Source: a virus
DNA: 25,530 nucleotides
Direction: 5' to 3' (one strand)
Virus record (IMG/VR): IMGVR_UViG_3300020153_000009
Span: 1 to 25,530 of that record
Shown here: positions 14,865-21,159 of the stretch, piece by piece
Layout: each line of letters starts with the position of its first letter
Position numbering within the stretch: the stretch's first letter is position 1
Translations under genes and position numbers: made by a program
Notes under the pieces: model-generated
Database searches by the model: none
What the model was told of the DNA's origin: nothing
Seen by the model: the letters and a program-made list of their open reading frames with translations, nothing else

Positions 14865-16672
14865 CGCCGTCTCCTCTTCGGCTGCTCAAGTGTCGTCCAG
14901 CACCGACAGTTGACGTGAGCCGGAGGGAGCGAATCCCATCCATCGCCCTGCTCACGGCCATGGCGCGGGGCGCAGATGGGGCAAACTCGCTCGTCCACCG
15001 CCGTTTGCCAAACGTGCACCAGCTCCACGCCTGACTCTGCAATGATCTGGCGCGCAATGTCCGTCCCCTGAGAATACGCTCGCGTCAACTCAGTCGTGGC
15101 AATCGCCTCGGCGCGAGAACTCCCGAATATGCGCGCAATGCGGTCAACCAACTGCTCGCGCGGCCAAGACTCGGCGCGAGCGCGGGCGAAGATGTTCTGA
15201 AGCTGGCGTGCCGTGGTGTCGTTAATGCCACGCACCAGCTCATACGAGTAATCGCGTGCCCAGCGCGCGGCAAAGTCATATTCTCGCTCCACGTCTGCGA
15301 ACGCCACCGAATCAAGCATCGCGGCGGTCGCCTGATCAATCGCCACGCCAAGCAGCACCTCTTCCAGCAAACGGCGCGCCTGCTCGGTGAACCGCTCGCT
15401 GTCGTAACGCAGCTCGTCTAGGTTAATCGAGCCTTCCAATACTTCGAGCATCTCGGCAGCTAAGCGCTCCCGCTCGCGTTCAAGCGGCGGTTCCTCGCGC
15501 CTTGCTTTAGCAGAGATGAAGCGACCAAAATTAAACGGATCAAGCCCTAAATCCGCCCGCGCCTTAATCGCCTTTACCCACGAATCCGGCAGGTCACGGG
15601 GGGCGAAGTCGGCAAGCGACTTACCACGCGACTCGCTCTTGCGTCGCCACTGGTCAAGCTCGCGCAAAGCCGACCGCAGCGCCTCGGTCATCGGCTGCGT
15701 TTCAGGCTCAAACCCCATCATCTGACGCGCTTCATCGCGCGTCACCAGCCCGGCCTGATACAGCTCGATTACGCTCTTGCGCTGTGCGCCCACATCCTCG
15801 GCCAGCGCTTCTATGTCATCGTAGTTGATTGTCAGGCCGAGCGCCTCGGCAATCAGCTCGGCATCTGGCAGCACGGTGTCGCGCCAGAACGAGATGCGAT
15901 GCTCCGCAGCCGTCGCGTAGTTGGCCGCGTCGGTGAGCATTGTGACCGGCACGCCGAACGCAGCGGAGATGCGCCGAAGCGCAATGTCATCTACCTGCGT
16001 CATCGCCAGCTTGTCGAGCGCCGGCATGCTCAGCTCGCGCACTTCCATCTTGCGCCGGAGCACCAACGCACGCCATGCGTTTCTTACTCCAGCCGTCAGC
16101 TTCTGCCACGCCGTGCGCATTGCCTCGGCGTCGGCATCGGTGATGGACGACTCACCGGGCGAGATGACCAGCGGCGGCAGTGCGCCTTGCTCGAAGAACG
16201 CCCGCGTAAATTGCTCGGCAGCCAGCGCAGTGGCCGCGCTGTCGGATGCAATCTGGAGCGGCGAAAGGCCAGGGCCGACATCACTGTTCGGAGACCAAGT
16301 GTGAGCGTAGATGATCTGATCTGGCGTATATCGGCGCGTGAACTGGTTCTGTTGCCAGATATGCGCCGTGATGCCGCGCTGCGGGTCAGCTTCAACGCGC
16401 ATTGCCGCAGGATTGAGCACGCGCATCGTCGCCTTCTCGATCCAAAACGCGCCGTGCGTGCACAGTGAGGTTTCGCATAGATATAGTGTGCGCGACGGGA
16501 TGGGCGCAGGCTGGCCATCTCGCAGGAAGGTAAGTGAAGCGACCGCGTTTGCACGTAGCGTAATGCAACGAAGGACATAAGCATGTAAACGTGACGAGGA
16601 GCGGAGTACAAGCGCGTAACCCTGCTCGTCCAGCGCCTTGATTGTCCCCGTTGCCGTCTTGATCGTCACCAT
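14861..16672 (-). CDS. Portal protein fused to Mu F-like minor head protein, 603 aa
   Basis: Residues 1 to about 330 are an HK97-type portal: HAYVLRCITLRANAVASLTF at the start, PDQIIYAHTWSPNSDVGPGL, SPLQIASDSAATALAAEQFT, ISAAFGVPVTMLTDAANYAT. From about 440 a Mu F/SPP1 gp7-type head morphogenesis domain follows, with TTELTRAYSQGTDIARQII and a cysteine cluster at the end (C564, C567, H586, C589, C591; VCPICAPRHG and HVNCRCWTTL) likely to hold zinc. In most phages these are separate genes. The portal is the DNA gate in the capsid vertex; the F-like protein helps head assembly. It overlaps terminase by seven bases and the next gene by four. Confidence 0.85.
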   Translation of the reverse strand: MVTIKTATGTIKALDEQGYALVLRSSSRLHAYVLRCITLRANAVASLTFLRDGQPAPIPSRTLYLCETSLCTHGAFWIEKATMRVLNPAAMRVEADPQRGITAHIWQQNQFTRRYTPDQIIYAHTWSPNSDVGPGLSPLQIASDSAATALAAEQFTRAFFEQGALPPLVISPGESSITDADAEAMRTAWQKLTAGVRNAWRALVLRRKMEVRELSMPALDKLAMTQVDDIALRRISAAFGVPVTMLTDAANYATAAEHRISFWRDTVLPDAELIAEALGLTINYDDIEALAEDVGAQRKSVIELYQAGLVTRDEARQMMGFEPETQPMTEALRSALRELDQWRRKSESRGKSLADFAPRDLPDSWVKAIKARADLGLDPFNFGRFISAKARREEPPLERERERLAAEMLEVLEGSINLDELRYDSERFTEQARRLLEEVLLGVAIDQATAAMLDSVAFADVEREYDFAARWARDYSYELVRGINDTTARQLQNIFARARAESWPREQLVDRIARIFGSSRAEAIATTELTRAYSQGTDIARQIIAESGVELVHVWQTAVDERVCPICAPRHGREQGDGWDSLPPAHVNCRCWTTLEQPKRRRR

Positions 16673-17847
16673 ATTACATCAGCAATTGCGCCGCGTGCAC
16701 CTGCGCGGGAGTAAACCCACGCAATAGCCATCACACAGTCATCGTGCATCCCAGCAGGCGCGCTGTATTCGTACGTGCCGTCGGCGCGCCGCTTCTGGCT
16801 GTACTGCTCCAGCTCGGTCAGCACATAGTCATCGTCCGGCAGGGCAATCTCACCGCGCTCGATTGCCCACGCCAGCTTCTCGATGATGTGGCGCTTGGTA
16901 CTGGCAGTGGTGACCGCGCTGGTGACCGGCAAGCCTTGCGACGCAAGGTAGTCCACGACCGGCGCGCCCGCCGCGTTCTGCTCGACAATCACGTCCTGTG
17001 CATCTACATCGCGTGCAATCTGCGCGATGCGCTGGACGGTGCGCGTGTAGTCAGCATGCCGCCAGTGCTCTACACGCAGGATCGCCGACTGCGAGATGTC
17101 CATCACAGCAACGGCAGTGTAGTCCTCATCGCGCCCGATGTCCACGCCGAGTGCAAACGGGCCGTGCGGCTCGACGGCCTTCACGCAGGCGCGAACGCCC
17201 CTGAACACCCCTCCGGCCTCGTCCACGAACTCGGCCAACCACTCTTGGCGGTAGGTTCGGTCGCTCACCAGCTCGCGTGCTTTCTGCGCTGCCTCGCGGA
17301 TGGATGGCAGCGGATTGTCCGTGCTCGGCGCGCGCCACGCTGCACCTTCAGTTTTGGCGCGTTCAAATTCGCGCCAAAACCAGTTGCGGCCACGCGGCGT
17401 AGAGATGAGCATCGCGCGTCCCCGACGGTCAGCAAGCGTCGGCATCAGCACGTCATACCAGACGCGCTCGTCCACCATCGCCGCCTCGTCCACGATGACC
17501 AAGTCGAATGCCTCGCCGCGGATAGAGTCGGGCGAGTCGGCGGAATAGATCGCAAGCGAACCGCCGGACGGGAATTCGAGCATCCGCTCGGCTCGCCGAA
17601 TAGTGAGCCGGTCGGCAACCGGCGCGGTCATGCGCTCCGCCATTCGCCACAGTGGGCGAGAATTGCGGTAGGTCGGTGCGATCCATGCGACGGCCCCGCC
17701 GTGTGCGGCGCACGACAGCGCGAGGCTGCCGGCCATGACGGTCTTGCCCCAGCGCCTGCCTGCGCAGACCACCTTAGTCCACGCCGGATGCAGGGCTATC
17801 TGCGTCTGGTCGCGCCGCAATCGCGGTAGCAGCAGAATAGTAGTCAT
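16666..17847 (-). CDS. Terminase large subunit, 393 aa
   Basis: The packaging motor. The N-terminus has an ATPase domain: Q-motif region (RRDQTQIALHPAW, about 11-23), Walker A GRRWGKT (30-36), Walker B FDLVIVDEAA with Asp120-Glu121, and the coupling motif ISTPRG (148-153). The nuclease domain has the acidic residues expected of an RNase H-like fold: VDIGRDEDYTA (Asp236), VIVEQN (Glu289) and MHDDCVM (Asp369-370). At 393 residues it is at the short end for large terminases. It overlaps the small subunit gene by 74 bases, yet the Q-motif lies in the overlap, so the early start is probably real. It acts with the portal encoded next. Confidence 0.95.
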   Translation of the reverse strand: MTTILLLPRLRRDQTQIALHPAWTKVVCAGRRWGKTVMAGSLALSCAAHGGAVAWIAPTYRNSRPLWRMAERMTAPVADRLTIRRAERMLEFPSGGSLAIYSADSPDSIRGEAFDLVIVDEAAMVDERVWYDVLMPTLADRRGRAMLISTPRGRNWFWREFERAKTEGAAWRAPSTDNPLPSIREAAQKARELVSDRTYRQEWLAEFVDEAGGVFRGVRACVKAVEPHGPFALGVDIGRDEDYTAVAVMDISQSAILRVEHWRHADYTRTVQRIAQIARDVDAQDVIVEQNAAGAPVVDYLASQGLPVTSAVTTASTKRHIIEKLAWAIERGEIALPDDDYVLTELEQYSQKRRADGTYEYSAPAGMHDDCVMAIAWVYSRAGARGAIADVIW

Positions 17848-18142
17848 AAGCCTGCACCTTCAGCGGCGCACCGTCGCGCCCGCTTACCTCGAGCTTGTCA
17901 GGAACTTTGCCGTAAGCGACTTCCAACACCCACTGCGCGAACTTCGGATTCTGCATGGCGCTGCGCAGGATAAGCTCGACATTTGTCGCTATGTGACCGT
18001 TAATGATAATAGGCGAGCCGTCCTTTCCCTTTGCAGGCTCTTGAAGAATAGAAAGTACGAGCCTGCGCAACTGGTCAAAGCTGCGCGGTCGCCCCTTACG
18101 ATTAATTCGCGGATCACCCTTAACGAATGGCTTGCCTACCAT
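17774..18142 (-). CDS. Putative terminase small subunit, 122 aa
   Basis: Begins MVGKPFVKGDPRINRKGRPR, the 'fkkGdpriN.kGRPkg' basic start of a family found just upstream of many phage large terminases (DUF5681-like). A helical part follows (SFDQLRRLVLSIL, ATNVELILRSAMQNPKFAQ). The small subunit recognises packaging sites on the phage DNA. Its ATG overlaps the stop of the glycosyltransferase gene as TAATG. The last 25 residues are coded in the overlap with the large subunit and are low in complexity. Assignment rests on start pattern and position. Confidence 0.65.
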   Translation of the reverse strand: MVGKPFVKGDPRINRKGRPRSFDQLRRLVLSILQEPAKGKDGSPIIINGHIATNVELILRSAMQNPKFAQWVLEVAYGKVPDKLEVSGRDGAPLKVQAYDYYSAATAIAARPDADSPASGVD

Positions 18143-18948
18143 TAGTCATAAAATTTAATACGCGGTAGAGATATATCCCTTTTAAGAATAGGCTTATTCT
18201 TAGCGAATCGTGTGTAGTCTACCTTATGCTGATAGCGCCCCCACTTATATGTTACATCTACCACGTCCGGATGCTGTTGCATCAGCGATAAAGCCATTCG
18301 TAATCTACTATCCTTGGCTTTGTATATTGTATCAGTATTACCACCCCTCATCTTCATCGTCGCTATCTTCTCAGCGGGATAAACGTTGAATAATGCAGTA
18401 CAATAGCCAGCTTTAAGAACCCTCAAACTAAGATCAGTATCCTCGTTATACACGCCACGCCATCGGAATGGCAAGGAATTATCAATCAGAATACAGGAAT
18501 AGATGCGAGTATTTAACGTGATAGGATACCTGGAGTGAGTCTTTGGTACAAACATCTTATATTGCATCCCCGCGAGTGCGATATTCTCATGAGCATCTAC
18601 CCATTCCTCGATTGCTCTAAAGGTGATGTCATCAGTCGTTTTATATAAGCGATTCCGGTAAAACACATAGAAATCTCTGATATTATCATCTAGAATCCAA
18701 TGACGTTTTGCGCCTGTACTGATCGAGTGCTCCCAAATCCAATTACGCGCCGGAATCGATCCTTGGCCAAGATTCGAGAACGGAAGAATCAATATTTTAT
18801 CCTTGTCAATTACCGAAGCATACTGGTCATATTCCTGTGGCTCGATAACAATATGAAACGGTATATCTCGCTTGATTAAAGCCTTCGCGGTTAAGCGAGA
18901 TTCCCACCTTCCTTTAGAGACTATGTAGATAGGATATCTAGGAGTCAT
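18142..18948 (-). CDS. TET-associated-type glycosyltransferase (TAGT-like), 268 aa
   Basis: The protein reads MTPRYPIYIVSKGRWESRLT, then FHIVIEPQEYDQYASVIDKD, SIPARNWIWEHSISTGAKRH, WILDDNIRDFYVF (Asp87-Asp88) and GVYNEDTDLSLRVLKAG (Glu169-Asp170). This is the pattern of GT-A-fold glycosyltransferases described next to TET/JBP oxygenases in phages, which are thought to add sugars to 5-hydroxymethyl bases in DNA. A DDN motif and an ED pair fit metal and acceptor handling. I chose ATG 18948 over the in-frame GTG 18981; it overlaps the ParB-like gene by 11 bases. The gene is visibly AT-richer than its neighbours (frequent ATA, TTA, AGA codons), suggesting separate acquisition. No TET oxygenase is in the window. 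Confidence 0.65.
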   Translation of the reverse strand: MTPRYPIYIVSKGRWESRLTAKALIKRDIPFHIVIEPQEYDQYASVIDKDKILILPFSNLGQGSIPARNWIWEHSISTGAKRHWILDDNIRDFYVFYRNRLYKTTDDITFRAIEEWVDAHENIALAGMQYKMFVPKTHSRYPITLNTRIYSCILIDNSLPFRWRGVYNEDTDLSLRVLKAGYCTALFNVYPAEKIATMKMRGGNTDTIYKAKDSRLRMALSLMQQHPDVVDVTYKWGRYQHKVDYTRFAKNKPILKRDISLPRIKFYD

Positions 18949-19582
18949 CGCTACTACACAGGCCAGGAGATTGTCTTTCACGAGGTGGAAACCAGATAAA
19001 TCTAGTGCGATCCGTAATAACTTGACCGATTAACTTCGCGAAAGCTTGAACATCATCTTCAGTAGCAAAATTAACCTTTATCGTCCTATAAATAAGATTC
19101 TCAGATTCAGGATCGATTACTCCGTATATTGCGTGTTCATATTTATCGCCTTCTGGACCTAAGATAGACCACAGATTAGCAACATCGAGACGCCAGCTAG
19201 CTAAAGTGTCACGATCCAACCCCCAGTCAATCAACTGTTTATCGCCCCATTTATTTAACACATCCCAATCCCACTGCCCAACAGCACCAGCGTGCAGAAG
19301 AACGATCAAGCGCTTACGCTCATCATCTGTAAGTGAACGCGAGGCACGCCGAACCTCTACCTCGTAGTCCTCTCCATACAGCGCCTTCAGCGCACTGAGG
19401 CGCTGATGGCCGTCGTAAACCTCATTATCCGGCCCGACAACGATGAGATGAACCTGACCGTAATCACGCCAGGAGTCAAGCAGGCGCTGCGCAGCGCGCT
19501 TGGTCATCTGGCGTGGGTTATGCTCCCACGGCTTAAGGTCGCGCAAACGCACGCGGTCGTTGTGCCAAGTCAGATCACCCAT
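18938..19582 (-). CDS. ParB/Srx-like DNA-binding or nuclease-domain protein, 214 aa
   Basis: The first 75 residues form a ParB N-terminal-type domain: RVRLRDLKPWEHNPRQMTKR, then LLDSWRDYGQVHLIVVG and EVYDGHQRLSALKALYG, with the DGHQR motif at 57-61. Such domains use CTP or ATP and, in phages, occur with DNA-modifying enzymes. The remaining 140 residues (LDRDTLASWRLDVANLWS, NLIYRTIKVNFATEDDVQAF) have no family I know. It overlaps the glycosyltransferase gene, and the two may act together in recognising or modifying phage DNA, which is inference. Its second half is AT-richer than its first. Confidence 0.7.
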   Translation of the reverse strand: MGDLTWHNDRVRLRDLKPWEHNPRQMTKRAAQRLLDSWRDYGQVHLIVVGPDNEVYDGHQRLSALKALYGEDYEVEVRRASRSLTDDERKRLIVLLHAGAVGQWDWDVLNKWGDKQLIDWGLDRDTLASWRLDVANLWSILGPEGDKYEHAIYGVIDPESENLIYRTIKVNFATEDDVQAFAKLIGQVITDRTRFIWFPPRERQSPGLCSSDDS

Positions 19583-20301: not shown

Positions 20302-21159
20302 TCACGGCACAAGGTCAAGGTGAGCTGAGATTCTGTGCGCGTGACGGTTGAACTCAATCACCAACCACACGCAGCCAAACACCCGAGGCGGCTTCCCAGA
20401 CTGGGCATCCCAGCCGCGACGGGAGAACGAGTCCAGATAAGAAGCGCAGCGAATATGCCACGTAGCTTCTCGCGCCACCACGTTCCTTGTACTCAACCGC
20501 TCCCTAGCAATCGGCAGCACGTAAGGATCATGCGTGTGGCCCTGAACCACCACGTCGGCTAAAACGTAGCTCTGAATGCGCCGTGTGTCCAGCGTGCCAA
20601 ACGACATCATCCCCCCTTTGCCGGATCCGTGCGAATAGTAGAGCGTTAACAGGTTGTGCTCTCTGGTCACCCCCTTAGCAAATACCCTAACCCATCCAGC
20701 GTAAGGCATCGCCTGCGTTTGGCCGCCCGACGCGCGCATCCCAGCAGCAAAACGCTCGGTCAAGTCGGTGGCGTAATTCTTCAGCACGGCCTGCTCATGA
20801 TTCCCCTGAGCCACCATCGCCCACCGCTTCGCATAAGGCGAATAACGCTTGACCGCGTTGTCCACCAGCGAATCAAAGTAGTCGGTTCGTCGGTACTGAT
20901 CGGCCAGCAGAGAATAATCGGCCCGCGGGTCTCGCGGGCCTTGCATTGCATCGAATAGGTCACCAAAATCTAAGATGAGCGCATCGCGCTCCTCAGCAAG
21001 CGCAAGCTGCTGCCGTTCAAGCTGCTCGCGCTGGGCAGGATGATCGTAGTGGCGATCAGAGGAGAGCATTAGGGTTATAGGTGAGGTCGGGGAATCAAGC
21101 TCGATTACGAGTACGTCGTGCGCAGGCTTGCTCGCTCTCCACTGCACGAGCGTGATCAT
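20302..21159 (-). CDS. Calcineurin-like metallophosphoesterase, 285 aa
   Basis: The metal-binding motifs are all visible in order: SSDRHYDH (Asp35, His37), DFGDLFD (Gly66-Asp67), VAQGNHEQ (Asn120-His121), YYSHGSG (His177) and VQGHTHDPYV (His208, His210). These residues hold two metal ions in a nuclease- or phosphatase-type active site. Phage members are thought to process DNA or nucleotides. The N-terminus MITLVQWRASKPAHDVLVIE leads directly into the fold; there is no signal peptide. The stop lies 58 bases upstream of the holin start, and its 5' end is 24 bases from the endonuclease stop. Substrate unknown. Confidence 0.8.
   Translation of the reverse strand: MITLVQWRASKPAHDVLVIELDSPTSPITLMLSSDRHYDHPAQREQLERQQLALAEERDALILDFGDLFDAMQGPRDPRADYSLLADQYRRTDYFDSLVDNAVKRYSPYAKRWAMVAQGNHEQAVLKNYATDLTERFAAGMRASGGQTQAMPYAGWVRVFAKGVTREHNLLTLYYSHGSGKGGMMSFGTLDTRRIQSYVLADVVVQGHTHDPYVLPIARERLSTRNVVAREATWHIRCASYLDSFSRRGWDAQSGKPPRVFGCVWLVIEFNRHAHRISAHLDLVP

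Follow-up and report, generated by a model that had tools for sequence, protein, structure and literature searches.

Which molecule is modified by the glycosyltransferase encoded directly upstream of the terminase genes of this virus, and what does the ParB-like protein encoded beside it contribute? The stretch of DNA analysed here (the window) is a virus record of 25,530 bases, which, since it is only 25.5 kb long and classed linear, may be incomplete. On its minus strand, a ParB-type gene (19582-18938) is followed by a gene for a TET-associated-type glycosyltransferase (TAGT, 18948-18142), a putative small terminase subunit gene (TerS, 18142-17774), the large terminase subunit gene (TerL, 17847-16666) and a portal gene (16672-14861). 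The neighbours overlap throughout, so that the run from the ParB-type gene to the portal gene reads as one translationally coupled unit. The original prediction had placed two overlapping genes at 18142-18948 and 18938-19582, and we find them exactly there, with an overlap of 11 nt.

The two genes and their products

The TAGT gene (18142-18948, minus strand, ATG at 18948) encodes a GT-A-type enzyme of 268 residues. Its assignment, made earlier from the SKGR, EPQEY, LDDN and NEDTD motifs, is borne out by profile search and does not lead to an unrelated family: the match to PF20691 has an E value of 2.7e-41 and scores 142.2 bits, compared with a curated Pfam cut-off of 27.5, and that to phrog_842 ('beta-glucosyl-HMC-alpha-glucosyltransferase') has an E value of 2e-41. 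All four motifs are present with DDN and NEDTD intact, and the DDN, a DxD-like metal-binding motif, is kept in 117/117 TAGT relatives. GT-A structures match a model of a fused relative at Z 13-14, the nearest folds being GalNAc-transferases, hyaluronan and cellulose synthases and collagen galactosyltransferases; a sequence search of solved structures gave nothing significant for either the TAGT or its ParB-type neighbour. Searching IMG/VR with the window TAGT yielded 56 relatives, and only two close relatives were found in bacterial genomes, by a search with one protein, which is sensitive enough for close kin only.

The ParB-type gene (18938-19582, minus strand) encodes 214 residues, the first 140 of which (19163-19582) form a ParB/Srx-fold domain with the DGHQR box II noted earlier. 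Pfam's own ParB model did not match this protein. The ParB identity is nevertheless upheld by the PHROG profiles, namely phrog_620 ('ParB-like partition protein', E 2e-11) and, as the best match, phrog_498 (ParB-methyltransferases, E 2e-15), and also by a structure model (pLDDT 85) that Foldseek aligned with the ParB-N structure 5k5d (E 4.5e-7, probability 1.0). In the Pfam scan, the canonical central HTH and C-terminal dimerisation domains of ParB were absent and no methyltransferase domain was found on the chain; its C-terminus is instead occupied by the domain described below.

The pair lies directly upstream of the terminase genes, as predicted. TerL (16666-17847, minus strand) is identified by phrog_2 (E 2.8e-40) and PF03237 (E 2.3e-10), while the putative TerS (17774-18142, minus strand), for which the PHROG scan returned no profile match, is named from its position and its conservation in relatives. 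The TAGT stop codon and the TerS start codon share one base (TAATG at 18142). Elsewhere in the window (20302-21159), a calcineurin-like phosphoesterase gene, conserved in close relatives (58-60% identical), stands beside a holin-like gene.

The tail domain and its linkage to TAGT

The last ~65 residues of the ParB-type protein constitute a separate domain, here called the tail, which the original prediction overlooked. It covers residues ~146-214 (18941-19147, minus strand; tail profile E 1e-22), and it came to light through the many TAGT relatives in which the upstream gene matched just the last ~40 residues of the window ParB protein. Its consensus reads W..MPEF.Q....I.VHF...EDV.AFA.LI.Q.IT.KT.SIWYP. 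No Pfam model covers it, and the sole PHROG for it, phrog_22103, matches a second small tail gene behind the TAGT of phage Aeh1.

The tail is almost never found without a TAGT, and the partnership is near-obligate. A search with the tail profile showed a tail adjoining or fused to the TAGT in 53 of the 56 TAGT relatives; two of the exceptions (L029 and L055) end at a contig edge, and only L057 is without a tail. Starting instead from the tail alone, with an alignment of a closer subset of tails, we recovered 418 relatives in IMG/VR, of which the best 80 were kept. In 79 of these best 80 a TAGT adjoins the tail, which it almost always follows immediately; the contig of the 80th stops 17 nt after the tail. 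In a few loci (L011, L033 and L047) the tail lies downstream of the TAGT. Plasmids were also searched, and neither the TAGT nor the tail matched there.

The tail occurs as a free-standing protein (mostly 72-140 residues), at the end of diverse ParB proteins, or at the start of the TAGT itself. Natural tail-TAGT fusions are found in L016 (two) and L054, and in the cultured phages Aeh1, 65, PTm1, Kuja (two copies), POP12 and Vibrio 1.124.O and 1.076.O the tail makes up the N-terminal ~100 residues of the TAGT. ParB as the conserved TAGT partner was considered and rejected, most tails being free-standing. Thus, in the ParB-TAGT pairing proposed originally, the ParB identity and the adjacency hold and a compact unit is a supported idea, but the conserved partner is the tail, which is usually not borne by ParB (it is in just 18 of 115 tallied rows).

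Several loci carry additional features. L016 (6422-8819) has three consecutive tails, the first free-standing and the next two in tandem tail-TAGT fusions, and in Aeh1 (L058, 5894-6094) and POP12 (L064, 5858-6037) a second small tail protein, of 66 and 59 residues respectively, comes after the fused tail-TAGT. Next to the tail-TAGT of L005 (4287-7766) lies a DNA polymerase III alpha gene (PHP, NTPase, finger) with a uracil-DNA-glycosylase-superfamily domain.

The junction between the two genes is itself conserved. In the window, the 11-nt overlap ATGACTCCTAG (18938-18948, minus strand) contains the end of the tail (-DDS-stop) and the start of the TAGT (MTPR). The frequent form is an exact 11-nt overlap of the pattern ATGAATCCTA[AG], in which the tail ends in -DES-stop and the TAGT begins with MNPK or MNPR; this exact overlap is present at 85/118 related junctions and at 12/25 after dereplication at 70%. 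ParB-fused tails (the window, L002, L003, L006/L007 and L010) share it with free tails. Tail and TAGT distances co-vary modestly, with an r of 0.44, the highest of 1000 shuffles having reached 0.45, and we do not count this as evidence.

For the natural fusion of L016, in which the tail accounts for 83 of 355 residues, AlphaFold2 gave a pLDDT of 90.7 and a pTM of 0.89, so that the position of the tail against the catalytic domain is predicted with confidence. These scores exceed what would be expected for a floating tail, and the model supports docking of the tail on the TAGT. In our reading, the predicted tail consists mainly of extended chain and has two short helices, much like a segment that would wrap its partner. 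The best match to this fusion among the predicted viral proteins of BFVD is a 40% identical protein, whose model aligns with all of the fusion at a TM score of 0.82.

In the literature searched, outside of which stands Iyer et al. 2013, reportedly the founding comparative paper on TAGTs, we found no mention of the tail as a TAGT partner, and the tail-TAGT pair is to that extent a new two-component TAGT with a near-obligate partner. Neither the tail domain nor a link with ParB is mentioned in the relevant passages of two papers on such enzymes (PMC13216743, PMC8056088). The latter (PMC8056088) lists a glucosyltransferase of Aeh1 with 'unknown base'; this protein is a natural tail-TAGT fusion of the window clade. 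A Klebsiella phage PKO111 protein named beta-glucosyl-HMC-alpha-glucosyltransferase also matches the fused tail-TAGT model (E 3e-10).

The ParB domain and the site before TerS

The box II (P-motif) arginine is present in the window ParB domain, but tail-fused ParB domains diverge strongly in this box (GGNQR, AGHGR, GGHMR, AGNKT, DGHQR) and some of them (L008, L028 and L051) lack the arginine. When the tail architecture (ParB-fused, free or TAGT-fused) was mapped on a quick tree of 117 TAGTs, at least 11 changes were required; ParB fusion accounts for at least 7 changes, 3 of them forced by well-supported branches.

The close relatives of the window phage, with TerL 80-88% identical, show what can occupy the site before TerS. 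It is empty in five of them (L071, L074, L075, L077 and L080), and six others (L067, L069, L070, L072, L073 and L076) have there a ParB, 73-76% identical, with another C-terminal part. Overall, the ParB N-domain is 73-80% identical in the close relatives with other C-terminal parts, and in L067 (1028-2200) a confirmed fusion of ParB to DUF4417 takes the place of the window's ParB-tail. A ParB-tail without TAGT, with TerS right behind, is found in L081 (1870-2472), L082 (5027-5674) and L083 (1702-2349), either as a remnant of TAGT loss or as a tail acting alone, while both the window and L002 have the ParB-tail and the TAGT at the TerS site, and in L029 and L079 the end of a TAGT is seen beside TerS. 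Since the same site can be empty or hold ParB-DUF4417, ParB-tail or ParB-tail plus TAGT, the ParB domain appears to be a platform on which the C-terminal module is exchanged. In L149 the ParB (75% identical) is fused with a DNA methylase, and no TerS was seen behind it. In L151 (100-4239), a radical SAM protein and, after it, terminase genes come behind a relative of the window ParB (54%).

Comparable architectures have been reported among phage proteins of the ParB-CTPase fold, namely ParB-N6_N4 methyltransferase and ParB-DUF4417 fusions (PMC12704722), and ParB domains also accompany the DNA modifier CmoX (PMC12783734). The N-terminal domain of the former is the same as that in the window; the C-terminal part differs, being here a tail that goes with a separate TAGT. 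Glycosyltransferases are not mentioned in the text of that survey (PMC12704722).

Base composition adds to this picture. The tail and the TAGT (18142-19147) have a GC content of 40-41%, compared with 55% for the ParB N-domain and 58% for the rest of the window, which suggests that both arrived together as a probable acquired cassette. Such a low-GC insert in a 58% genome, missing as a whole from five close relatives and reduced to the ParB-tail in three, could be a recently acquired moron without a lasting role, the cassette spreading between phages and the ParB gene serving only as a landing site. We consider this improbable, because the catalytic motifs are intact, ParB fusion is recurrent, and the near-obligate linkage and the junction have been conserved across large divergence.

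Linkage to packaging genes depends on the form of the tail. In 12 of the 14 ParB-type loci, the start of a TerL lies no more than about 1.3 kb downstream of the TAGT (L017 and L028 score just under the Pfam cut-off), whereas the terminase is not among the commonest neighbour families of free-tail loci. Therefore, the link with terminase goes with ParB: the label 'packaging-linked' given to the pair originally fits the ParB-borne version and fails for the enzyme in general, and the notion that the pair is always packaging-linked was rejected, free-standing tails being usually away from terminase.

Acceptor and donor of the sugar

The profile scans detected no oxygenase and no hydroxymethylase among the genes of the window, in a record that may be partial, in agreement with the original prediction. 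The 47 tail-TAGT records (31-334 kb long, some possibly fragments) give a similar result: TET was found in none, although the positive control, phage P12024L, was detected with an E value of 2.8e-29; thymidylate-synthase-fold (hydroxymethylase-fold) enzymes were found in 5 and C5-methylases in 2. A survey of ParB plus TAGT in phages without TET had been proposed; TET is indeed absent from these relatives, but the near-constant companion of the TAGT is the tail, not ParB.

These numbers bear on the classical pathway, in which an enzyme outside the record or in the host would provide a hydroxymethylated base and the TAGT would cap it. A window record of 25.5 kb, linear and perhaps partial, and the thymidylate-synthase-fold enzyme in 5 relatives would be compatible with such a route; however, the other 42 have no such enzyme, and in Nonlabens phage P12024L, where the TAGT is linked to TET, it has no tail, making this pathway quite unlikely for the tail-TAGT. 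P12024L gp27 belongs to the same family, PF20691 (E 7e-30 against the window-clade TAGT profile), but its neighbours are TET and a methyltransferase; in the window clade, the tail is present and TET is absent.

Since no enzyme for the usual hydroxyl acceptor is conserved, the acceptor may not be DNA. The tail-TAGT might glycosylate a protein instead, such as the tail/ParB protein itself, terminase or a virion protein. Its closest solved folds include polypeptide GalNAc-transferases and collagen galactosyltransferases, its genes lie among packaging genes in the window phage, and the extra tail copies beside some TAGTs (L016, L058 and L064) could be substrates. GT-A folds, however, are common to glycosyltransferases with many acceptors, and free-standing tails are usually away from terminase. 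Furthermore, a connection with DNA modification is frequent among the ParB domains of phages (PMC12704722, PMC12783734), and the experimentally studied TAGT acts on DNA: in passages of PMC13216743, T6 Ggt, the beta-glucosyl-HMC-alpha-glucosyltransferase, is placed in PF20691 and glucosylates phage DNA on already glucosylated hydroxymethylcytosine. A protein acceptor thus seems unlikely, and DNA is our best inference. T6 Ggt is nevertheless very distant, without a tail and undetected by the window-clade TAGT profile, and it lies beside a dCMP hydroxymethylase, for which the scans saw no counterpart in the possibly partial window. According to the same passages, TAGT homologues are solitary in 288/753 phage genomes, many genomes encoding a TAGT but lacking the glucosyltransferases or the base-modifying enzymes after which it is known to act (PMC13216743).

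As to the donor, genes for NDP-sugar SDRs (epimerase/dehydratase) or UDP-glucose dehydrogenase-like proteins adjoin the TAGT on the same strand in L011, L018, L033, L043, L044, L047 and L057, which makes a nucleotide-sugar, and in some cases a special one, the probable donor. The run in L044 (2565-6398) consists of the tail-TAGT, an SDR, a second, divergent TAGT and a UDP-glucose dehydrogenase-like gene, which suggests a pair of transferases that brings its own sugar supply.

Taken together, the explanation that fits best, to which we would give about an even chance, is that the pair forms a two-component, TET-independent glycosyltransferase, with the tail as an obligate subunit carried on ParB, that most likely adds a sugar to phage DNA before or during packaging. 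The tail would pack onto the catalytic domain of the TAGT and, at the ParB C-terminus in the window phage, would tether the enzyme to ParB much as methyltransferases are fused to it. The complex would then transfer a sugar from a nucleotide-sugar to the DNA, either to an unmodified base or to a base made by an unrecognised enzyme, and ParB, as we infer, would bring the enzyme to DNA or gate it with nucleotide. Against this explanation count the three relatives that have a ParB-tail without TAGT, the majority of tails that have no ParB, and the ParB domains that lack the box II arginine. A more specific version is doubtful: the TET-free two-subunit enzyme would glycosylate an unmodified DNA base directly, the tail would complete its acceptor site, and the exchangeable ParB would act as a nucleotide switch that places or times the reaction at packaging.

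The tail, which is easy to recognise, provides a sequence marker for one large TAGT clade, with its 418 tail relatives in IMG/VR, and the finding that a single ParB domain can be followed by a methyltransferase, DUF4417 or the tail bears on the role of ParB in phage modification proteins. The partnership also suggests that expressing a TAGT alone may miss its activity. Since tail-TAGT phages such as the Aeromonas phages Aeh1 and 65 are in culture, the product can be sought now.
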